Part shown: positions 286 through 10,599 of the stretch, one piece after another | Numbering within the stretch: the stretch's first letter is position 1 | How the letters are laid out: the number at the start of each line of letters is the position of its first letter | Notes under the pieces: generated by a model | The model's input: only the letters and a program-made list of their open reading frames with translations | The model's database searches: none | What the model was told of the DNA's origin: nothing | Position numbers and translations under genes: made by a program | Origin: Oceanihabitans sp. 2_MG-2023 | Lineage (GTDB): Bacteria; Bacteroidota; Bacteroidia; Flavobacteriales; Flavobacteriaceae | Reading direction: 5' to 3' | DNA length: 64,000 bases | Assembly (NCBI RefSeq): GCF_030547245.1 | Contig: NZ_JAUOQT010000004.1 | Coordinates: forward strand, 129,001 to 193,000

Positions 286-2247
286 ATGAGTACATCCAGT
301 ATTATAGACGTGCCTAAAAAAGCACAAGATAAAGATCAATTAGGTATAGATGCCTACAAAAACGGTTTAACAGGTTTTATAAATACAGCGCAAACACCAC
401 TCACTATTGCCATACAAGGAGAATGGGGTAGTGGGAAAACTTCACTAATGAATGCTATAAGGCATGATTTGTGTGAAAATGAAAATAGCTTTTTTGGTAT
501 TTGGATAAACACTTGGGAATATTCGTTGCTTACAGACGAGTATACCACGATGACGAATATTATTCAAGGTATTATTTCTTCGGTTATACAGGTTTTGGAA
601 AAGGATAAGAACCAAAACCTAGAAGATTTAAAGAAAAAAGCTGTTGGCTTTTTTAAAGCCGCAGCACGTAGTGCCGCAAAAATGGGAGCTAATGCAGCAA
701 CCGCTGGTATTGCAGGAGATGCTACCGATGCTTTTTTTGAAGCTGCAGATAAACAATCGTCTTTGCGCGAGTTACACACCGAGTTACAGAAGCAAATTAA
801 CCAAACTATTGAGCACAATGAGAACGCCAAAGGGTTCTTGTTTTTTATAGATGATTTAGATCGTATCAATCCACCTGTAGCAGTGCAAATACTAGAGCTG
901 CTAAAAAATATCTTCGATTTAGAGAATTGTATTTTTATGTTAGCCATAGATTATGATGTGGTTGTTAAAGGTTTGGAACCAAAATTTGGTAAAAAAACAG
1001 CTGAGAATGAACGCGAGTTTCGATCTTTCTTTGAAAAAATTATCCAGTTACCTTTTACCATGCCTATTGGTCAATATCGTGTTAACGATTTAATTATTGA
1101 TAATTTAAAGCAACTGCAATATTTTAACGAAGGGGAGCTTACACCAGATATTTCAGATGTTATTGTAGATATTAGTAATCTTACCGTGGGTTCTAATCCA
1201 AGGGCTATTAAGCGTTTACTAAACAGTTTATCTTTAGTACGAAGTATTATGATTGCTGTAGAGAAAGATAGTAAGCCTTCAGCCTTTGAGCAGCTTATAA
1301 ATATAGGTGTCTTTAGCATTCAAATTGCATACCCTTTAATCTTTAAAGTATTAGAACGGTTTCCAGATTTTACGGCTTGGAATGATGAGGTTGTGGAAAC
1401 CTTTAAGTTAAAAACTATAGACGCTAGTTTAAAAGAAAAACTGTCGCAGAATGAATATTTTGATGAAGAGTGGGAACAGGTGTTGTATCAATTGTGTCAG
1501 CGCGAAACGTTTTTAAGTAATCGCGCAATGCAAATTTCTAGGCTTTTTAACACCTTAAAAAATCGTATAGAACTCAATGCTACCAATGTTTCTAATGATA
1601 CGGATCAGACCGAATCACAGGATGTTACTTTACTAGATGTAATGACTAATGCCATTCAAATAGCATCCGTTACTAGTTATGATAACAATATTGAAGAGCC
1701 AAAGGCAAAAGAAATACATAAATCTGGATTTTTAAAAGGTTTAAGAGAACGCATTAAAAATAATTTAATGCAACAAGCGGCATCTAAAAATATAGAGATT
1801 CTATACCAACAAAAGGCTGTGAAATCTAACTTGACTTTCTTGATACAAAAAGGAAAACACAGGTATCGTTTAGATTTCTCGGTGCATACCAGTGCTAAAG
1901 AATATAGTATACTAGCACGTTACGGTAGTTGGTATTTTGTAAAAGCCATACATAACGATTTTTACAAAAACCTAGAAGAGCCCGAAGCAAAGGAATTAAA
2001 TGCAAAAGAACGCTTTGAAGGCATGCTACTTAAGATGGAAGAACTTAATAAAGAACTCCCTGAAAATTACGAGCTTAATCATAATGTATTAACAAACGAT
2101 AAACACAATACGGTTGTGGCTACCATGAATGTGAAAACACCAAACGCATGGGCTTTTATTAAAGATCAACAAGAGCTAGACATCTACTTAGATAAAATAA
2201 TAAAGTTTTTAGAAGCTGTTAGAGATATAAAGATTGGTAATAGTTAA
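286..2247 (+). CDS. KAP family P-loop ATPase
   Basis: A 653-aa protein with Walker A GEWGSGKT at residues 45-52 and a KAP-type Walker B FFIDDLDR at about 186-193. Between them lies the long helical, alanine-rich insertion (about 110-170) common in KAP NTPases, where membrane-associated helices often occur; here it is only moderately hydrophobic. The last 150 residues, from about 490, look like a separate alpha/beta domain that I cannot name. KAP ATPases are scattered among bacteria and several act in phage exclusion, the classic case being PifA of the F plasmid. That link here is by family and neighbourhood only. The gene starts three bases after the repeat-protein stop and is followed by a terminator, so it probably forms its own transcript apart from the downstream helicase cassette. 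Confidence 0.85.
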   Translation: MSTSSIIDVPKKAQDKDQLGIDAYKNGLTGFINTAQTPLTIAIQGEWGSGKTSLMNAIRHDLCENENSFFGIWINTWEYSLLTDEYTTMTNIIQGIISSVIQVLEKDKNQNLEDLKKKAVGFFKAAARSAAKMGANAATAGIAGDATDAFFEAADKQSSLRELHTELQKQINQTIEHNENAKGFLFFIDDLDRINPPVAVQILELLKNIFDLENCIFMLAIDYDVVVKGLEPKFGKKTAENEREFRSFFEKIIQLPFTMPIGQYRVNDLIIDNLKQLQYFNEGELTPDISDVIVDISNLTVGSNPRAIKRLLNSLSLVRSIMIAVEKDSKPSAFEQLINIGVFSIQIAYPLIFKVLERFPDFTAWNDEVVETFKLKTIDASLKEKLSQNEYFDEEWEQVLYQLCQRETFLSNRAMQISRLFNTLKNRIELNATNVSNDTDQTESQDVTLLDVMTNAIQIASVTSYDNNIEEPKAKEIHKSGFLKGLRERIKNNLMQQAASKNIEILYQQKAVKSNLTFLIQKGKHRYRLDFSVHTSAKEYSILARYGSWYFVKAIHNDFYKNLEEPEAKELNAKERFEGMLLKMEELNKELPENYELNHNVLTNDKHNTVVATMNVKTPNAWAFIKDQQELDIYLDKIIKFLEAVRDIKIGNS

Positions 2248-2310: not shown

Positions 2311-2413
2311 TTAAATAATACACTTAAGTAATAAATTATTTAAAATGTAATATATTACTTAATGATTAAAAAATTATATTGTTATTGTATTGGTAATTAG
2401 GTGTTTTTTAAAA

Positions 2414-2428
2414 TGGTATGAGGATTGG
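2414..2428 (+). promoter_or_regulatory. Candidate sigma54 (-24/-12) promoter
   Basis: TGGTATGAGGATTGG matches the sigma54 layout TGGCAC-N5-TTGC: GG and the -12 dinucleotide are exactly 10 bases apart, and TGG and TTG are both present. The -12 C is replaced by G and the -24 CAC by TAT, so this is an imperfect site. It lies 32 bases before the ATG at 2460, a sensible distance, and the cassette it would drive ends with a sigma54-dependent activator. No clear Bacteroidota -7 box was seen in the gap. Confidence 0.35.
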
Positions 2429-2459
2429 TTTATGGTGTGTGAATTTAAAAACATATACA

Positions 2460-2750
2460 ATGAAAAACATTCTTAATTACAAGTTAACACATCATTTTGA
2501 AGAAAGATTAAACCAAAGACAAATAGATCCTTTTTTGGTCTCTATGTGTCTTGTTAAAGGGGATATTAAGATGATGAAAAAAAATAAAATAGAATTTACA
2601 CTTTCTAAAGATGCTATTAAGCAAGCTATAGCACAAGGTTATATGTTGGCTAGAGATTGTCTTGGTATAACAAGTTTAACGGTAGTAGTGAGAAAAAATA
2701 TATTAATAACCACATTTGCTAAGTTTGGCGATACAGGGATAAGTAATTAA
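2460..2750 (+). CDS. Small DUF4258-like protein
   Basis: A 96-aa protein. It begins with a THHFEERLNQRQI segment and ends with a hydrophobic strand VVVRKNILITTFAKFGDTG. This arrangement (H..eR...R.I near the start, VVV...I.T near the end) resembles DUF4258, a small family related in shape to BrnT-type toxins; the assignment is by pattern only. An in-frame ATG at 2418 would add 14 residues, but it lies inside the candidate sigma54 promoter, so the ATG at 2460 is preferred. It is the first gene of the cassette, with only two bases between its stop and the helicase start. It may be a nuclease-like, toxin-like or RNA-binding component; no catalytic role is shown. Confidence 0.6.
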   Translation: MKNILNYKLTHHFEERLNQRQIDPFLVSMCLVKGDIKMMKKNKIEFTLSKDAIKQAIAQGYMLARDCLGITSLTVVVRKNILITTFAKFGDTGISN

Positions 2751-2752
2751 TT

Positions 2753-5596
2753 ATGAGTGAAGAAAATAAAGCAAACTTGCACTATGCTAACTCTGTAGTA
2801 ACTGATGATAATGATTTTTCAAAAGGAAAGATTTTAGATGGTGTTAGTTATGGATTAAGGGATTATGAAAACTATCTTAATAATAGTATACGTGTTATAC
2901 AAAAAGATAGAGCTATTAAAATACCTTTAAAATTAAAAGAAAAAAGGTATTATATACTATTCAATGATTTTTCTACCGAAGATTCAGAAGCAATTAAAAA
3001 CACAATATTCACAAAAAAAATAAAGAAGGTATTAATAAATAATTCAGAAAAAGCAGTTCAAATTAGTCATGTAAGTGATAAAGAAAAATATATAGTAGTA
3101 AAAACAAATACTCATGTTAATACAATAACATTAAAATTATCTTCTAAATCTATTTCTCTATCATTAAAAATGGCAATAGTTTATGCTGTTGGTTTAGATG
3201 ACCTTAAAGAAAGGGATGCGAAAAAAGTGGAGTCCGAATTATTTGAAAGAGGAGTTAAAACTGTTTATACAGAACAGCCAGGTGCTAATGTAAGAAGTAA
3301 TAAAGCTAATGCTGTTTATGTGAAATCACGTAATGAACCTGAAAAGTATATAGTTTTAGATGAATCGGAGGAAATTGAATATGTGTACTTAAAAGCAGAT
3401 GATTATCAATTACAAATGCAATTAAAGGCTATTCGTAATTTAAAAAATAAACCTAGATTAGAACATACTCCTTTGCAAAAGCTCTTTGATTTATCTTATA
3501 AGGCAAAATCTTTTTTCGAAGAAAATATGGAATATGATAATCGAGAGCTGAAATTTCAAATTTTAAATAAGCCTGATGAATTTGATGGTACCATTGAGCA
3601 ACAAAATTTTGTGAAAAAGGCTTTAAGAACTAAAGATTTTGCTTTATTAGAAGGCCCTCCTGGTTCAGGTAAAACTACTGCTATTATTGAGTTAATTATT
3701 CAACTAATAAAGCAAAATAAACGTGTTTTGTTAGTGTCAGCAACACATGTTGCTGTAGATAATGTAATACATCGCATTCTTACTACGTATAAAGAACAAT
3801 GTCAAGGCTTGGTTGTCCCAATTAGAATTGCTTCAGATGTAGATAGTATTAGAAAAGAAAGTGTAGAGCCTTATGAGTTGAATAGTTTTATAGATACAAC
3901 AAAAGTTGAAATAGCTAGAAATATAAGGTCAAAAAATGTTAAGGAAAGTGGTAAAACATTATTAGAAAGTATAACAAAATCAGAATCCAGCTTTGATGAT
4001 GTCATCCTAAAATCAGCAAATTTAGTTGGAGGAACTATGATTGGAATTCTAAAGCATCCCGATATTAAAAAAGGAGGTATTCAAGAAATGTTTGATGTAA
4101 TGATAGTAGATGAAAGTTCTAAGGTTACTTTTCTAGATTTTATAGTTCCTGCATTGTATGCTAAGAAATGGATACTAGTTGGTGATGTAAAGCAATTGTC
4201 TCCATATACCGAAGATGACTTTATTAATGAAAATATTGATGCTGTTATAAAAAATAAAGAAGATAAGAAAAAACTTGTTTCTGCTTATGAAGTAAATAAA
4301 AAATTACTTTCAAATGAAATATGGAATAAAAAAAGTGTGAAGGTTTTATTTTCTAAAAATCATAATGAAAGCGATTTTGAAAATCATGAAGTTTTTAAAA
4401 TACCATCAAGCTTTGAAAATACAGAAGCGAATATATTAAAACTAAATAGTGTTGATTTAGTTATTAGTGAACCTACTAAAAAGCATAAAAAAATCATTGC
4501 AAATAATCTATTTGTAAAAGCGCAATTATTTGAAGATAAAATAGATGAAATCGCTTTTAAAAATAGACAAGTTTCTTTTCATAAAAAGAAGAAGCGTTAT
4601 AATAATAAGTCATTTTATCCTTATGAGTTTATAACGGGTAAAAATGAAGAGTGGAAAGAGTTGGTTGGTAGTAATTTAAGTCAGATGTATCAATATCGAT
4701 TTGATCCTGATTTAAATAAGGAATTAGCTAATGCGTTTGATGTACTGGTGCCAGAAGTATATCAAGAAAATATTGAAAAAATTAGAAGAGTTGCCTTGCC
4801 CTCTATATTGGAGTTGTTGCAAATCGGAGTTGGAGAAAAATCTAGAGAAACAAAAAATGGTGAGCGATATGTAGAGGATAAGTTGATTTATAAAGGATTC
4901 AATCATTTTTCAAGGATAAAAGAAAATAAGTTTCAAACCTTATCTTATCAACATAGAATGGAAGAGGAAATAGCTAACCTTTCTAGAGAGCATTTTTATA
5001 ATAATGATAATTTATATACTGCAAATACAGTTGTTAAAAGGAGGAGTCCTATTGCGTGGTTTAAGTCCAATGAGGATAAAGTGATTTGGGTAACTAATAA
5101 GGATGAGACATTTAGAAAACGCAATAAAAAAGGGGAATCAAAAAATATAAACCCAACAGAAGTTAAACAAATAATAAGTGAGTTGGAGCAATTTATTAAA
5201 CAAGCAAAATTAAATCCAAAAAGTAATAATGAGAAGTATGAAATAGCTGTTTTAACTTTTTATAGAGCACAAGTTATAGAGCTGAAAACAGAACTACGAC
5301 AACTTACAAATCAAAGGAATAAACACAAGTTTTTTACTACGGGTAATGTTGAAATAACATTGAGTACTGTTGATAAGTTTCAAGGGGATGAAGCAGATAT
5401 GGTGTTGTTGTCATTTACAAAAGCAACAAAAAAGGCTTTTTATAATAGTCCGAATAGATTAAATGTAGCGCTAACACGAGCGCGTTATAAGTTGATGCTT
5501 TATGGTAATCAAAATTGGTTATCAAGGAATGCTCAGCTGGAAGCACTTAGAGCAATTGCGAGTTCAGTAGGTAATATTAAACAAATAAGAGAATGA
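2753..5596 (+). CDS. SF1 helicase, Upf1/COG1112-like
   Basis: A 947-aa superfamily 1 helicase. Walker A GPPGSGKT is at residues 301-308, motif II reads DESS at 453-456 (usually DEAS/DEAA in Upf1-like enzymes), motif III GDVKQLSP follows, and VDKFQGDEADMV plus NVALTRAR (904-911) are motifs V and VI. An insertion of about 200 residues separates motif III from motif IV. The 270 residues before Walker A form an unrecognised N-terminal region. The family unwinds RNA or DNA using ATP. Prokaryotic COG1112 helicases next to PLD nucleases are the core of the Mokosh anti-phage systems; here the PLD protein is two genes downstream. No kinase domain, as in type I Mokosh, is visible. The gene overlaps the next by four bases (ATGA). 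Confidence 0.9.
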   Translation: MSEENKANLHYANSVVTDDNDFSKGKILDGVSYGLRDYENYLNNSIRVIQKDRAIKIPLKLKEKRYYILFNDFSTEDSEAIKNTIFTKKIKKVLINNSEKAVQISHVSDKEKYIVVKTNTHVNTITLKLSSKSISLSLKMAIVYAVGLDDLKERDAKKVESELFERGVKTVYTEQPGANVRSNKANAVYVKSRNEPEKYIVLDESEEIEYVYLKADDYQLQMQLKAIRNLKNKPRLEHTPLQKLFDLSYKAKSFFEENMEYDNRELKFQILNKPDEFDGTIEQQNFVKKALRTKDFALLEGPPGSGKTTAIIELIIQLIKQNKRVLLVSATHVAVDNVIHRILTTYKEQCQGLVVPIRIASDVDSIRKESVEPYELNSFIDTTKVEIARNIRSKNVKESGKTLLESITKSESSFDDVILKSANLVGGTMIGILKHPDIKKGGIQEMFDVMIVDESSKVTFLDFIVPALYAKKWILVGDVKQLSPYTEDDFINENIDAVIKNKEDKKKLVSAYEVNKKLLSNEIWNKKSVKVLFSKNHNESDFENHEVFKIPSSFENTEANILKLNSVDLVISEPTKKHKKIIANNLFVKAQLFEDKIDEIAFKNRQVSFHKKKKRYNNKSFYPYEFITGKNEEWKELVGSNLSQMYQYRFDPDLNKELANAFDVLVPEVYQENIEKIRRVALPSILELLQIGVGEKSRETKNGERYVEDKLIYKGFNHFSRIKENKFQTLSYQHRMEEEIANLSREHFYNNDNLYTANTVVKRRSPIAWFKSNEDKVIWVTNKDETFRKRNKKGESKNINPTEVKQIISELEQFIKQAKLNPKSNNEKYEIAVLTFYRAQVIELKTELRQLTNQRNKHKFFTTGNVEITLSTVDKFQGDEADMVLLSFTKATKKAFYNSPNRLNVALTRARYKLMLYGNQNWLSRNAQLEALRAIASSVGNIKQIRE

Positions 5597-6663
5597 TATT
5601 AAATAAAGATATAAATATAAATAAATACAGAGTACTAGCAGACTATAAAGTAAAAGTGAAAAAATCTCCTTTTATGTCCGTTTTACAGTTAGCAAAAGAA
5701 GAATTAGGTGAATTGACTGCAGAAATTCTTTATGAAAAGTTAATGAAACCTTTATCTGTAAAAGCATGTGAGAACTTATTGATTAGGCTTGTTTCTATGG
5801 GGTATTTTGAAAAAGGTTTTAATGGGATTATTGAAGGTGATGAAAACGAATGGTTAGCTGAAAATAAAAATGATTTTTATCAATTAACTCCATTTGGATT
5901 CCAATCCATTGATACTAAAGAGTTCTATGACACAAGAAATGGTCTTTTAGAAATTTGGATAGCAGAGGATAATGCATTTACAACTAAAATTGTGAAAATT
6001 GTAGAATTGAGATATGATGAAGACAAAGAACAGGAAACTCAATATATTACTAATGAATTATTATCTTTAATAAAAAAGACACAAGTTATTAAGCTTAAAA
6101 ATGATGCATTTACTATTGATAAAATAGAATCTCAGGTTAAATTTTTTAGTTCGAATAAAGAGGTTTTAACAGTTGTATTTGAAGAGAGTAATTATATGAT
6201 TCAATTGGCTAATTTTTCGCAGTACATTGAAGAAGAAAAACAAAAAGCTATAGCTTCTATTTTAAAAAGTGAGTTTAGATCTAATTATTTACAGCAAGAA
6301 CATATTGTTTTAACTGACTTTAAGAATAATAATCTTTCATTAGTTGGGGATCATAAAATAGAAAGACCCGTTTTTAAAGAAACCTTTTTTAATGCCATCA
6401 CTATTCCTAATGTAACAGTAAGCCCTAAAAATAGAAAGGAAGCTAAAAGCTGGTTTCAAGCTAAGCTAAAGCAAGGAATTAACAAGTATTTTGTGTCTGA
6501 TGAGGAGTTTAGAAAATATGAAAATGAAATAGCCAACGAATTTCAGTTGTTTAAAAAAGAGTTATCAAATACCATAAGCAGGCAACAATTATTAGAACTG
6601 ATAGGGGAAGAAGATTTTTATAAAAAGGCAAAATTAGAAACTATAGATTATTTAAATTATTAA
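5593..6663 (+). CDS. Unrecognised cassette protein, possible N-terminal winged helix
   Basis: A 356-aa acidic, soluble protein with no signal peptide or membrane segment. Residues about 25-75 read like a winged-helix domain: helices containing SVLQLAKEELGE, LYEKLMKPLS and ACENLLIRLVSMGYF, followed by a short hairpin. The remainder is mixed alpha/beta with a coiled, lysine-rich C-terminal third (about 280-345). I recognise no family. Its start overlaps the helicase stop by four bases, so it is translationally coupled and likely works with the helicase, for example as a DNA/RNA-binding adaptor. That role is inference. Confidence 0.75.
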   Translation: MILNKDININKYRVLADYKVKVKKSPFMSVLQLAKEELGELTAEILYEKLMKPLSVKACENLLIRLVSMGYFEKGFNGIIEGDENEWLAENKNDFYQLTPFGFQSIDTKEFYDTRNGLLEIWIAEDNAFTTKIVKIVELRYDEDKEQETQYITNELLSLIKKTQVIKLKNDAFTIDKIESQVKFFSSNKEVLTVVFEESNYMIQLANFSQYIEEEKQKAIASILKSEFRSNYLQQEHIVLTDFKNNNLSLVGDHKIERPVFKETFFNAITIPNVTVSPKNRKEAKSWFQAKLKQGINKYFVSDEEFRKYENEIANEFQLFKKELSNTISRQQLLELIGEEDFYKKAKLETIDYLNY

Positions 6664-6667
6664 GGAG
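6662..6667 (+). promoter_or_regulatory. Strong Shine-Dalgarno AAGGAG before PLD gene
   Basis: AAGGAG lies six bases before the ATG at 6674. Most genes in this window have no Shine-Dalgarno sequence, as usual in flavobacteria, so a near-perfect one here is unusual. It may raise synthesis of the PLD protein within the cassette. Confidence 0.6.
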
Positions 6668-6673
6668 AAAGCA

Positions 6674-8158
6674 ATGAAAGAATTAGTTTATAAAAAGAGT
6701 TTCGAAAATAAAAAGGTGCTTCATAATGTTTTTGTTCCTACAAATAAAGAATGGATAAGTACAGAAAATGATGATTTATCAATAATAGAATCTGGAAAAA
6801 ATGGTGTGTTATTTAATAAAATAATTGCAGATATCCATAATGCTCAAGTAATGATATGTCTACAATCCTTTTTAATTCAAGACACTAAAATAATAGATGC
6901 TTTATTAAAAGCGAAGCAAGAAAGAGGTGTTAAGATTTTTGTTATGGGCTGTGCAGAAGCAAAGCTAGAAGCGAACCCTTATGGAGAAGAAGATAGTTTT
7001 ATAACAAAAGGATATAAAACAATGTTGGAGGAGAAGTTTAAAAACAACTTCGTGCACAGACAAGCAGGAAATCTACACGCAAAATTTATTTTAATAGACC
7101 CCAAAACAAATCCAAAAGGATATCTTTTTACAGGAAACTTTAACTTAAAACCTTTTTATGAAAATCCAGAATTAGCTATACAACTCTCAATGGCTAAAAC
7201 AAAAGAACTCTTTCAGGTATTTGTGCATCATTTTTGGAATCATACAACAGATGAACAAACGCAATCCTCTCATTTTGATAAGGTAAAGCCTATTAATAAA
7301 TTTGAAACAGTTGTTTTAAAACAGATTTTACTCACCTCTCCAAATAAAGATTTGTGTAACTTAAAAACGACTTTATTAGAAGTAATATTAAAAGCAGAAA
7401 AAGAGATCCAGGTTTCTACATTTGGTTTAGATATTAATCATGAACTATCACAGGGTATTTTAGATAAGCTTAAAGAAGGAGTAAAAGTTACTGTTTTTTG
7501 TAGACCAAGATTAAAAACTATAAATGGACATATTGAAATTTTGGCAAAACATGGGGCAAAGGTGTTTTGTCACCCGCTAATTCATGCTAAATCTATAGTT
7601 GTGGATAATACAGAAGCTTATGTTTTTTCAGCTAATTTTGAAGAGTATGGTATGGATACAGGTTTTGAAGTTGGGTTGAAATTAATAATGAAGCAAAGAA
7701 ATGATTTATTAAAAATATATGATAATTGGAAAAATACGTTTCCGTATGAATACTTTAATGAAAGAAAACTAACAGAAATAGATAGTTATCAAGTACTAGA
7801 TAGAGAAAGTAGGTTGAAGTCTATTATTAAAATCGAAGAAGAACGTTTTGTTGCTAAAAAGCAACACGCAAAAACACTAAATGAATTGTTAGCTTTTTTC
7901 TCAATAAACGAACCAAAAGATTCTCTGTTAAAAATAGAACATGTAGAAGTGGTAGCTAAGTTAGATACACTAGAAAAGTATACTAAAGTTAAAGTTATTA
8001 GTAAAGTAGCAGAGTTAGTAGAGATCCAAATAGGACGTAGTAAGAAAAATAAAACAGAAAAAGTATTATTGTTTGATGTTAAAGAAGAAGATCGTATTAT
8101 CAGTTTATTACCAGATTTAGCAAAAGACTATAAAAATTTTAAAATTTATGCAAAATGA
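6674..8158 (+). CDS. Phospholipase D-family protein with two HKD motifs
   Basis: A 494-aa protein with two PLD catalytic half-sites. The first is H135-A-K137 with D142 followed by TGNFN; the second is H304-A-K306 with D311 followed by SANFE. Both HxKxxxxD cores are intact, so a complete active site can form within one chain. PLD enzymes cleave phosphodiester bonds; bacterial members without a signal peptide next to helicases are often nucleases, as in DISARM and Mokosh. The C-terminal 130 residues are a separate charged domain that I do not recognise. The gene has a strong ribosome binding site and overlaps the activator gene by four bases. Confidence 0.85.
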   Translation: MKELVYKKSFENKKVLHNVFVPTNKEWISTENDDLSIIESGKNGVLFNKIIADIHNAQVMICLQSFLIQDTKIIDALLKAKQERGVKIFVMGCAEAKLEANPYGEEDSFITKGYKTMLEEKFKNNFVHRQAGNLHAKFILIDPKTNPKGYLFTGNFNLKPFYENPELAIQLSMAKTKELFQVFVHHFWNHTTDEQTQSSHFDKVKPINKFETVVLKQILLTSPNKDLCNLKTTLLEVILKAEKEIQVSTFGLDINHELSQGILDKLKEGVKVTVFCRPRLKTINGHIEILAKHGAKVFCHPLIHAKSIVVDNTEAYVFSANFEEYGMDTGFEVGLKLIMKQRNDLLKIYDNWKNTFPYEYFNERKLTEIDSYQVLDRESRLKSIIKIEEERFVAKKQHAKTLNELLAFFSINEPKDSLLKIEHVEVVAKLDTLEKYTKVKVISKVAELVEIQIGRSKKNKTEKVLLFDVKEEDRIISLLPDLAKDYKNFKIYAK

Positions 8159-9729
8159 AAAACAAGCAAATACTATTAACATGGGATGCTTTTAATAATG
8201 GTTTTGTGGTAACTGCAAAAGTTTTGAAATCTTTATTACTAGAAAAAAAAGTTTCAATTGATTTCATTTATTATTTGCAAAATCAGGAATTATCCGATGA
8301 AAATTTAGCAGAAATTGATGTCTTTTTTGAAAGAAAGAAATACGGTGAGGTTTTAAAGAAGTTTGATGATGAAAGAATTATTGATAGAATAAAAGAAAAC
8401 CGTGCAATTAGTGAATCTCTAAAATTAGAAACGGAAGTGCTTCCTAAATTTCAAAATAAGAGAGTTTCAATCAATGGTGTAACTAATTATCAATCTATTT
8501 ATGATAGTTTAATAACTTTTTTAAAAGATAAAATTTATGATAGAGAAAATATTGATTTACATATAAATATTTCTCCAGGTACACCACAAATGCATGTGGT
8601 TTGGTTAATGTTGAATTCTGCAGGTTATTTACCTGCAAATACTACTTTGTGGTCTAGTCAATATGATAAGACCAAAAAGAAAACATATTTAGAAGAGGTT
8701 CGTTTTACACCTAATATATTTTTAAGTGAATTATTAAATAAAAAATATTTAAATAATGCACATAGGTTAAATCCAAACGAGACAAAATCCCAAAAAAGGA
8801 AAGCAGCAGAAAGTAGATTAGCGTTGTTTTCTCATATTCCAAATGCTTCTATTTTATTGTTGGGTGAAAGAGGGACAGGTAAATCTACTTATGTTAGAGA
8901 GTTGATTGTTAAAAAATATAATAAAGATTATCCATTTTCAGAATTAGCATGCGGTACTTTTTCAGAAGAGTTGATGAAATCGGAGCTTTTTGGATATAAG
9001 AAAGGTGCATTTACAGGAGCTGTAAAAGATAAAGAAGGGATATTGTCAAAATTTACAAAAGGTGGGGTGTTATTTCTGGATGAAATACAAGATTTGTCTA
9101 AATCGCTACAACGGCAATTAATTCAAGTTTTACAAACAGGTAATTACTTTCCATTAGGAGCAGATCAACCAGAAAAAACAAACTTTAGATTAATAGCGGC
9201 AAGTAATATTTCTTTTAGTGACTTAACAAGTAATATGTTAGACTATGATTTTTTTGATAGAATTTCTAGGTTTATAGTGCAGATTCCTTCTTTGAGAGAA
9301 TGTCAAGAAGATTTTGTTATTAATTGGCAAAATGTTTGGAATGATATCTCTAGTTTTGAAGATGCGCCAAGTGTAATATGGAATGATAAAATACATGGGT
9401 TTTTAAAATCTAAAAAATTATATGGTAATTATAGAGATATGCAAAAGTTAGCATCTTATATTTTGGCTTTTTATTTTGAAAGTCACAAAAAAGATGTTGC
9501 TGTTGATAAAGCAATTAAAGAATTTGAAAAATGGAATGTTGAGAAGGCGAGTTCAGATAAGTCCTATTTTGTTGAAGGTAAAACATATAATGAAATGGTA
9601 GCAAAATTTAATAAAGAATTAGCAGAGTGGTCTATCAATAATTATGGAAATAAAAAGAAGGCTTCAGGTGTCTTAAATCGTTCAGAGAGTATGTTGTCTA
9701 AAGATTTAAAAATGGATAGACTAAAGTAG
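8155..9729 (+). CDS. RtcR-like sigma54-dependent activator with CARF-type N-terminal domain
   Basis: A 524-aa protein. Residues 1-190 resemble the CARF sensor domain of RtcR; most telling is the segment HINISPGTPQMHVVWLML followed by YLPANTTLWSSQ, which parallels the RtcR IHITTGTHVAQICWFLL...YLPARLI region. Residues 210-430 are a sigma54-interacting AAA+ domain: Walker A GERGTGKS at 237-244, intact GAFTGA loop at 284-289, Walker B GGVLFLDEIQD, and FFDRISRF...LREC. The last 50 residues include a likely Fis-type helix-turn-helix. RtcR-type activators sense an RNA-derived ligand and switch on RNA-repair genes. Here the target is probably the cassette itself, since a sigma54-like site precedes it. 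It would connect damage or infection signals to expression of the helicase and PLD protein. Confidence 0.85.
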   Translation: MKNKQILLTWDAFNNGFVVTAKVLKSLLLEKKVSIDFIYYLQNQELSDENLAEIDVFFERKKYGEVLKKFDDERIIDRIKENRAISESLKLETEVLPKFQNKRVSINGVTNYQSIYDSLITFLKDKIYDRENIDLHINISPGTPQMHVVWLMLNSAGYLPANTTLWSSQYDKTKKKTYLEEVRFTPNIFLSELLNKKYLNNAHRLNPNETKSQKRKAAESRLALFSHIPNASILLLGERGTGKSTYVRELIVKKYNKDYPFSELACGTFSEELMKSELFGYKKGAFTGAVKDKEGILSKFTKGGVLFLDEIQDLSKSLQRQLIQVLQTGNYFPLGADQPEKTNFRLIAASNISFSDLTSNMLDYDFFDRISRFIVQIPSLRECQEDFVINWQNVWNDISSFEDAPSVIWNDKIHGFLKSKKLYGNYRDMQKLASYILAFYFESHKKDVAVDKAIKEFEKWNVEKASSDKSYFVEGKTYNEMVAKFNKELAEWSINNYGNKKKASGVLNRSESMLSKDLKMDRLK

Positions 9730-9798: not shown

Positions 9799-10599
9799 TT
9801 AACCAGCAGCAGCTATTTGCATACAATGCCCTTGTGCAAGGGCATACAATTCGCCATTTACCATTTGGTAAAACACAATAGCAGTTCCTGCAAATAAAGA
9901 TGTAGTTGCGGGTATAGGCGCATAAGCCGTTAAGTCTACTGTTAAATCGGTTGCTGCACCAACCATACCACTTAAAGCAATAGCATCGCTATAGCTTACA
10001 TCGCCATGTCCATTAGCATTTTCTTCTACAGGCTCATAAGATTTTAGAGCAGGTTCCCATTCATAATTACTGGTATAACCAGCGGCTAATGCTAGTTTAC
10101 AATGGGTGGCACCTTCTGGTATATTAATATACGTTTCTGTATTAAAATCAGGAATAGACCAAGTTACGGTATCCCGACTGGCATTAATAGTTGGCCCTAC
10201 ATTAGGAGCGTTAAACTGACTGTCAAAAGGCTTGGTCTTATCAAAGTTAAAACCAAAAAAAGTAGCGCTATTATCTACCACATTAATGCTGCGAGAACCA
10301 CGAGTACCAATACCATTCGATACTACGTTACGCATAATACCCGTAATTCGTGCGCTTAAATAATTATCACCAACCAATCTGGCAATTCCAGAAAAGCTTT
10401 CTCTAAAGGCTTTACCGCATCGCGCTGCACCTCCAAATTCTTGCATATTTTCTCGCGTACGCTTGTACGCAGGGTCGTTTAATATGCGTTTTTTACTAAC
10501 GTTACTTTTGGTTTTCACAAAATTGTCGCCGTTCTTTCTAAAAAAGGTTAAACCATCTAAGGTCCCTTCCAAACGAATAAATGAATTGTTCTTTGCCAT
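9799..10599 (-). CDS. Conserved hypothetical protein of flavobacterial type
   Basis: A 266-aa protein with no signal peptide. The N-terminal 95 residues are highly basic and patterned (IRLEGTLDGLTFFRKNGDNF, then RILNDPAYKRTRENMQEFG), while the second half is a hydrophobic beta-rich domain with a GTAIVFYQMVNGELYALAQG ending. Proteins with this layout recur in flavobacteria, but I know no function and no confident Pfam name. It is a single-gene unit with its own terminator and a striking stem-loop 16 bases before its start, suggesting independent regulation. Confidence 0.75.
   Translation of the reverse strand: MAKNNSFIRLEGTLDGLTFFRKNGDNFVKTKSNVSKKRILNDPAYKRTRENMQEFGGAARCGKAFRESFSGIARLVGDNYLSARITGIMRNVVSNGIGTRGSRSINVVDNSATFFGFNFDKTKPFDSQFNAPNVGPTINASRDTVTWSIPDFNTETYINIPEGATHCKLALAAGYTSNYEWEPALKSYEPVEENANGHGDVSYSDAIALSGMVGAATDLTVDLTAYAPIPATTSLFAGTAIVFYQMVNGELYALAQGHCMQIAAAG

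Follow-up and report, generated by a model that had tools for sequence, protein, structure and literature searches.

A candidate inducible defence operon in Oceanihabitans that combines a Upf1-like helicase, a predicted winged-helix protein and a PLD-superfamily protein with an RtcR-like sigma54 activator

The DNA analysed here is a 64,000-nucleotide stretch of Oceanihabitans sp. 2_MG-2023 (contig NZ_JAUOQT010000004.1, positions 129,001 to 193,000), referred to below as the window, and our subject is a cassette of five tightly packed genes near its start. The five open reading frames (ORFs) lie on the forward strand, are separated by +2, -4, +10 and -4 nucleotides (nt) in that order, and encode a DUF4258-like small protein, a Upf1/COG1112-like superfamily 1 (SF1) helicase, a protein that we call X, a phospholipase D (PLD)-superfamily protein and an RtcR-like sigma54 activator (Table 1). 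An initial annotation had described five genes with gaps of -4 to +10, had placed the helicase and the PLD protein at their core and had interpreted the whole as a Mokosh-like defence unit. The ORF list, together with the Pfam, PADLOC and NCBIfam searches by which the five proteins were assigned to families, confirmed that the cassette is real and bore out its core. As set out below, the interpretation also stood with regard to control, defence setting and transfer, but not with regard to Mokosh as the family.

Table 1. Coordinates of the cassette genes and of the upstream control DNA in the window (aa, amino acids; AF2, AlphaFold2; wHTH, winged helix-turn-helix).
Feature	Coordinates	Strand	Basis
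Tandem palindromes GTAATAAATTAT-N7-GTAATATATTAC, probable upstream activating sequence for the activator	2328..2358	+	Recurrence, shuffles, genome scan
Sigma54 -24/-12-like site TGGTATGAGGATTGGT	2414..2429	+	46 nt before ATG 2460; consensus score
DUF4258-like small protein, 96 aa, BrnT-like predicted fold, candidate RNase (ORF 2418-2750)	2460..2750	+	Pfam, AF2, Foldseek, relatives
Upf1/COG1112-like SF1 helicase, 947 aa, no kinase domain found	2753..5596	+	Pfam, PADLOC, PDB, motifs, tree
Protein X, 356 aa, predicted N-terminal winged helix	5593..6663	+	AF2 model, fold search, relatives
Two-HKD PLD-superfamily protein, 494 aa, probable nuclease	6674..8158	+	Pfam PLDc_2, HKD motifs
RtcR-like sigma54 activator, 524 aa: CARF-like N-terminus, AAA+ with GAFTGA, C-terminal HTH	8155..9729	+	PADLOC, Pfam, motif

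The helicase scored above the Pfam cut-offs for AAA_11 and AAA_12, has SMUBP-2, DNA2 and UPF1 as relatives in the PDB and carries the helicase motifs GPPGSGKTT, VDES, QHRM, VDKFQGDE and NVALTRAR intact. No kinase domain was found among the 25 Pfam families listed for it, in agreement with the initial annotation. In a tree of 17 rows, which has long outgroup branches and does not include CnuH, the nine cassette helicases formed one clade (support 100/100), separate from the kinase-bearing L030-L032 and from the remaining Upf1-like sequences. The PLD protein matched Pfam PLDc_2 with 74.9 bits and shows the two HKD motifs of PLD nucleases as HxKxxxxD sequences at residues 135 and 304; the residues concerned (H135/K137/D142 and H304/K306/D311) are invariant in 9 of 9 aligned PLD sequences, the window's included. 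Encoded between the two is X, the extra gene product that the initial annotation could not place, and for which neither Pfam nor PADLOC gave a match up to E 0.1, while NCBIfam listed two matches at E 0.06-0.07. The AF2 model of X (pLDDT 85.5, pTM 0.69) had its best fold matches in MarR/PadR-type wHTH domains over about 85-98 columns (best E 0.045); outside this winged helix the search gave no convincing fold match, and no solved relative of X was retrieved by sequence at E 10.

The order of these genes recurs far beyond the window. The full five-gene order was found in Tenacibaculum finnmarkense, in Nonlabens and in a Chlorobiota metagenome-assembled genome (MAG); in G016, a genome of the same family, this complete set follows a Wadjet operon. 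Helicase, X, PLD protein and activator recur on Vibrio and Rhodobacterales plasmids, and two genomes carry helicase, X and PLD protein without the activator. Relatives of X were found in 11 loci besides the window, one of them a fragment, which gives 12 X loci: the window, L008 and L012 (T. finnmarkense), L009 (Chlorobiota MAG), L010 (Bacteroidetes MAG), L011 (Nonlabens), L013 (Chitinophagales MAG, on a contig cut at both ends of the unit), L017 (genome G697, retrieved by a search with X), L019 and L020 (Vibrio plasmids), L021 (Pontibrevibacter plasmid) and L022 (Klebsiella plasmid). Helicase, X and PLD genes are contiguous in 11 of the 12 (the exception is L022), and the activator follows the PLD gene in 10 (the exceptions are L010 and L017, the latter with 616 bases of contig remaining after the PLD gene). 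The loci come from Bacteroidota, the Chlorobiota MAG, Gamma- and Alphaproteobacteria; with the gene starts chosen here, their gaps do not exceed 22 nt nor their overlaps 23 nt, as befits the conserved, tightly packed cassette that had been claimed. A helicase scan of genome contigs returned seven loci, one of them on the same Nonlabens contig as G016; because X and PLD genes directly follow the helicase in six of the seven, we consider the cassette to be more than a chance assembly. The seventh locus, with a distant (29%) helicase, is without X and PLD protein.

The cassette is nevertheless sparsely distributed. X was detected in 2 of 60 relatives by single-sequence search, and by profile in 2 of 397 family genomes and 2 of 395 phylum genomes, the window's own genome counted each time. 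These counts may be low, because single-sequence tblastn found no X in plasmids, although the profile finds it there (E 2e-12 and 7e-13 for the Vibrio copies). In viral contigs no relative was confirmed in three pattern-limited scans (activator, PLD protein and helicase), and two phage records gave weak helicase matches. A truncated copy lies on a Klebsiella pneumoniae plasmid (L022, 3621-5844), which holds the X-PLD-activator part. X is interrupted there next to an annotated IS21 element, no helicase was found in the part of the plasmid examined, and E. coli genomes gave no match to the stretch of X fragment, PLD gene and activator gene.

The activator matched the PADLOC model RtcR_PspF1 (CARF_AAA_HTH) over residues 3-519 (378.6 bits), as well as Pfam Sigma54_activat (134.4 bits) and Pfam RtcR (24.9 bits, cut-off 23.1), and has the activator motif GAFTGA at residue 284; by its CARF-AAA-HTH layout and model match it belongs to the RtcR_PspF1 CARF family. 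The genome has an RpoN gene, and -24/-12-like sites lie 40-54 nt before the first gene in seven of eight scored activator-bearing loci, L013 and L022 being outside this scoring for want of DNA upstream of their first gene. On a home-made consensus score, and with 500 single-base shuffles as reference, 0-2 shuffles were as good as the sites of L008, L012, L009, L011, L019 and L020, and 5 equalled that of the window; in activator-less L017, 480 of 500 shuffles did as well as the best candidate within 120 nt, so that this locus lacks a good site. Further upstream, all five DUF4258-bearing loci share two palindromes, located at -124 to -140 and spaced 19-20 bp, and the score of this pair was reached by 0 of 300 shuffles and by none of 365-1054 other windows per locus. 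At 19-bp spacing and 0-1 mismatches the pair is unique to its place in the window within the 3.69-Mb genome; 2 mismatches admit one other genomic place and one that overlaps the original. The sigma54-like site, the palindromes and the presence of RpoN suggest that the activator probably drives its own operon, in line with the initial annotation.

Activators of this type also occur elsewhere in the phylum. A survey with RtcR_PspF1 gave 41 places in 40 of 395 phylum genomes, most matching little beyond the AAA+ part; the neighbourhoods inspected are the window's own and six more, with 34 further places outside the inspection. At these six places, in five other genomes, no helicase, X, PLD protein or DUF4258 was found at E 1e-3, and the neighbours are other genes, some of them defence-like by eye. 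At two loci (L072, 11618-15830, and L076, 8324-15239) an AAA ATPase gene and a gene for a protein of about 293 aa, alike by eye, precede an RtcR-like activator, with an extra ORF intervening before the activator in L076; the pair is possibly another gene set under RtcR-like control.

The ORF of the first cassette gene opens at 2418, but alignment with relatives makes the ATG at 2460 the likelier start. The Pfam DUF4258 score (19.1 bits) is below the cut-off of 25 and covers residues 23-51 of the longer ORF only. The AF2 model of the protein (pLDDT 87.3) had BrnT (3u97) as best Foldseek match in the PDB (prob 0.93, E 0.18, TM 0.53/0.63), and no solved relative was retrieved by sequence at E 10. 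The protein is 55-67% identical to those of four relatives. Its gene lies 5' of the helicase gene in five loci (the window, L008, L012, L009 and L011). No such gene was detected in the two activator-less loci or in those three plasmid loci for which upstream DNA is available, L013 and L022 being uninformative on this point; among the loci compared, it is confined to activator-bearing Bacteroidota/Chlorobiota loci.

The setting of the cassette is that of a defence island, as the defence reading would have it. Upstream on the same strand are GmrSD, a type I methyltransferase with its specificity subunit (the latter called from sequence only), a PDC-M62A/B pair and a KAP nucleoside triphosphatase (NTPase). 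In T. finnmarkense TNO010 the corresponding upstream place is taken by type I restriction-modification (RM) genes and McrBC, the Nonlabens cassette lies behind Wadjet JetA, JetC and JetD (PADLOC), and annotated cas1/cas2 are about 2 kb away from the Vibrio aerogenes plasmid copy. As to the individual neighbours, the PDC-M62A/B pair (L018, 6057-9457, upstream of the window) consists of an ATPase and a partner that match this PADLOC candidate system with 162 and 157 bits, and sits between the probable type I specificity gene and the KAP gene. The KAP P-loop NTPase (window 286-2247; Pfam 133 bits, PADLOC PifA 124, PDC-S20 97) is directly upstream of the cassette, was not observed next to the cassette at any other locus inspected, and is possibly a separate exclusion or defence gene.

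Horizontal transfer, at which the initial annotation had hinted from the A+T-richness of the coding sequence, is supported by different evidence: the Klebsiella plasmid stretch is 94.5 and 95.8% identical at the DNA level to two Vibrio plasmids, which points to transfer of the cassette between families. The GC argument itself is weak. The cassette has 28.31% GC and the whole window 31.35%, and every 7.27-kb window sampled downstream has a higher value than the cassette, but the lowest (28.35%) is nearly equal, and cassette GC across loci tracks the host, from 25 to 62%. An empty-site comparison within the genus was abandoned, as the downstream anchor gene was found at E 1e-100 in only one of seven genus genomes, the window's own.

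We favour, with moderate confidence, the reading that the cassette is an inducible, sparsely distributed helicase-wHTH-PLD operon with anti-phage (or anti-plasmid) function; its neighbours across loci (type I RM, GmrSD, PDC-M62, McrBC and Wadjet) support a role in defence. In such an operon, the RtcR-like activator would bind the palindromes through its HTH, while its CARF-like domain would sense an infection- or damage-derived ligand, by analogy with RtcR perhaps RNA ends with a 2',3'-cyclic phosphate. The AAA+ ring would then open the RpoN promoter, and expression of the whole operon, activator included, would rise sharply. The Upf1-like helicase would load on exposed RNA or single-stranded DNA, X would couple it through the winged helix to the two-HKD PLD nuclease, and the resulting complex would degrade phage (or cell) nucleic acid. 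The DUF4258-like protein, as a candidate RNase, could aid the attack or make more activating RNA ends. That the ligand would arise from RNA damage, as the initial annotation proposed, we infer from Salmonella RtcR, which according to an excerpt of PMC7790460 binds 5' tRNA halves ending in 2',3'-cyclic phosphate.

Several observations weigh against this reading or parts of it. (i) Concerning the ligand, E. coli RtcR needs RtcAB, as stated in an excerpt of PMC9650030, and searches for RtcB and RtcA, positive in 9 and 5 of 14 control genomes, detected neither in this genome, which is 99.96% complete; sensing would therefore have to be RtcAB-independent, and the operon's own products could take the role of RtcAB. 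(ii) Concerning the promoter, the window's site is the weakest of the seven, with TTGGT as its -12 element, and no convincing site was obtained for L021, the copy from Alphaproteobacteria (74 of 500 shuffles). Activator-less L010 has a fair score (3 of 500, scored before base 10001 and not before an ORF start), so that a -24/-12-like site alone is not diagnostic. (iii) Concerning the palindromes, the motif was built on the window and L012, two of the five loci on which it was tested, and L008 and L012 represent a single species, which leaves L009 and L011 as independent tests; all five loci are AT-rich, and the Vibrio copies are without this palindrome by eye. (iv) Concerning the proteins, the fold searches with X and with the DUF4258-like model gave no match at E 0.001, no DUF4258 gene was found with the Vibrio copies, and the PLD superfamily includes lipid-synthesis enzymes (the cardiolipin-synthase model gave 34.7 bits, cut-off 290). 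To our knowledge, no ligand has been assigned to this CARF branch.

A bolder version of the same operon, which we think rather unlikely, is a self-amplifying switch: phage-made 2',3'-cyclic phosphate ends would be sensed without RtcA/RtcB, and the DUF4258 RNase-fold protein would make more such ends, leading to commitment to the full helicase-wHTH-PLD killing complex. A similar feedback is proposed for CoCoNuT HEPN RNases in the sections of PMC11090510 drawn on here, from which the present switch would differ in its RNase and in its weapon. If true, it would give a first role to DUF4258 toxins, a family termed undescribed in an excerpt of PMC11980606, and would be a case of CARF immune signalling by RNA ends and not by cyclic oligoadenylate.

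Since switch, probable DNA target and weapon all lie in one 7.4-kb stretch, what an RtcR-type CARF activator of a defence operon senses could be examined on a single reporter-carrying construct. The four-gene core, activator included, is found across phyla, and five loci share the DNA target. Should the cassette be a defence operon, it would join a known kind of alarm to a little-studied weapon and would give the DUF4258 family a defence context.

The alternatives to this defence operon are partly compatible with it, and the weights that we attach to them need not add up to certainty. We give very little credence to the idea that the genes are chance neighbours in a defence island. The island is indeed mixed and gene-rich, and RtcR-like activators also adjoin other gene sets, but the same order, at the close spacing given above, recurs across phyla behind common upstream control DNA; for helicase, X and PLD protein chance is refuted, and the DUF4258 gene and the activator may be optional parts. 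A stress or RNA-quality-control operon under RtcR-like control, with no part in defence, also appears improbable: sparse distribution, carriage on plasmids with transfer between families and defence neighbours are unlike housekeeping genes, and the RtcB RNA ligase was not found in the genome, even if the helicase resembles UPF1 and SMUBP-2 and RtcR proper governs RNA repair, as an excerpt of PMC7790460 states.

Two further alternatives assign the cassette to defence systems already known. Mokosh type I consists of MkoA, an N-terminal Ser/Thr kinase fused to a COG1112 helicase, and its PLD partner MkoB, and type II of a single MkoC protein in which a helicase is fused to a PLD domain. Akin to type I, the cassette has a Upf1-like SF1 helicase beside a PLD protein, MkoA is the best PADLOC match of the helicase (303.7 bits, with 272 and 292 for the Vibrio rumoiensis and Pontibrevibacter helicases), and profile comparison relates the cassette PLD protein to the C-terminal domain of MkoB (prob 75.6, E 2.4e-5). 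It differs from type I in having no detectable kinase, X and an activator of its own, and a helicase of a separate clade: two kinase-bearing MkoA score 903 and 849 over their full length against 304 for the cassette helicase, whose best stretch starts at position 448 of the MkoA model, while kinase-bearing L030 and L032 match from position 5. The MkoB model gave the cassette PLD protein 19.9 bits (E 9e-5) and that of V. rumoiensis 41.5, as opposed to 290 and 278 for the MkoB proteins beside kinase-helicases, neither of which was found at E 10 with the cassette PLD profile. MkoC matched the helicase with 83 bits, the PLD protein was not among its listed matches, and helicase and PLD protein are here encoded by separate genes. 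X as the detached N-terminus of MkoB was likewise rejected: both are winged-helix-like by eye, but profile comparison gave a probability of only 0.6% (E 0.09). The component tests (kinase, MkoB score and helicase tree) thus speak against Mokosh as the family, which the initial annotation had proposed, and a divergent Mokosh in which helicase and PLD protein act as MkoA and MkoB, the kinase has been lost, and X, DUF4258-like protein and activator are accessories is, in our view, unlikely. Apart from the cassette, the Mycobacterium marinum plasmid pRAW (L031, 2779-8036) encodes an annotated kinase that includes a Upf1-like helicase part; the next gene product is annotated as S1 RNA-binding and takes the place of a PLD nuclease, possibly a Mokosh variant with another effector. 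The other alternative, which we entertain tentatively and which is compatible with the defence operon in function, is a relative of CoCoNuT, namely a cnuHE arm (Upf1-like helicase and winged-helix nuclease) with a BrnT-like gene and RtcR, with or without nearby McrBC-type GTPase genes. The gene plan fits closely with what excerpts of PMC11090510 describe, and McrBC directly precedes the T. finnmarkense cassette and lies about 7 kb upstream in the Chlorobiota MAG (McrC recognised by Pfam, McrB by AAA_5 and position in L008 and by position only in L009). However, X is not fused to the PLD protein, and no McrBC match was obtained in the five cassette genes or in the upstream genes scanned, two upstream ORFs being judged by sequence only. 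McrBC adjoins the cassette only in T. finnmarkense among the loci looked at, and neither the ORF list of Nonlabens nor the annotation of the plasmids showed any (both unscanned, with only about 0.5 kb upstream in Vibrio).

Single components of the cassette also resemble those of other systems. Of the PADLOC models, DISARM DrmC fits the PLD protein best (73.6 bits), but the NCBIfam DrmC score of the protein is 65.9 against a cut-off of 133, and no other DISARM model is among the listed PADLOC matches of the five genes. DUF4258 is counted among the BECR toxins in an excerpt of PMC11980606. The weak DUF4258 match and the BrnT-like predicted fold hint at a tentative likeness of the first protein to RelE/ParE (BECR) toxins; its gene differs in heading a sigma54-type operon, and a search for an antitoxin partner found no ORF of at least 80 aa at 2248-2459 (shorter ORFs being outside the check). 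The activator shares CARF-AAA-HTH layout and GAFTGA with the RtcR/RtcR_PspF1 family, but unlike RtcR, the activator of rtcBA, it belongs to a helicase-PLD operon in a genome where RtcA and RtcB were not found, and with an NCBIfam RtcR equivalog score of 175.6 against a cut-off of 650 it is not RtcR proper. RtcR-like proteins beside R-M systems were reported in 2014, according to an excerpt of PMC4012209. A literature search, whose scope excluded the 2020 CARF classification and the original Mokosh report, did not find this gene combination.

A close architectural counterpart is CoCoNuT. As described in the sections of PMC11090510 drawn on here, the Upf1-like helicases of CoCoNuT systems precede an elongated wHTH that is joined to nucleases, in type III-C to two PLD domains. 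BrnT-like genes lie directly upstream, and superoperons that include type I RM also contain RtcR homologues; the legend of Figure 8 there names PLD nucleases and YprA-like helicases among the ancillary genes near RtcR, and a cassette like the window's may be drawn in that figure. In architecture, the cassette resembles CoCoNuT types II/III: after the Upf1-like helicase come a product with a predicted wHTH and a probable nuclease, the gene upstream has a BrnT-like predicted fold, and the operon includes an RtcR homologue. It differs in being without CnuB/CnuC (the NxD McrB GTPase and the McrC homologue), in encoding wHTH and PLD in separate genes, and in having the activator as its last gene. 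With its free-standing, predicted winged-helix protein between helicase and probable nuclease, the cassette represents a possible link between the Mokosh and CoCoNuT architectures.

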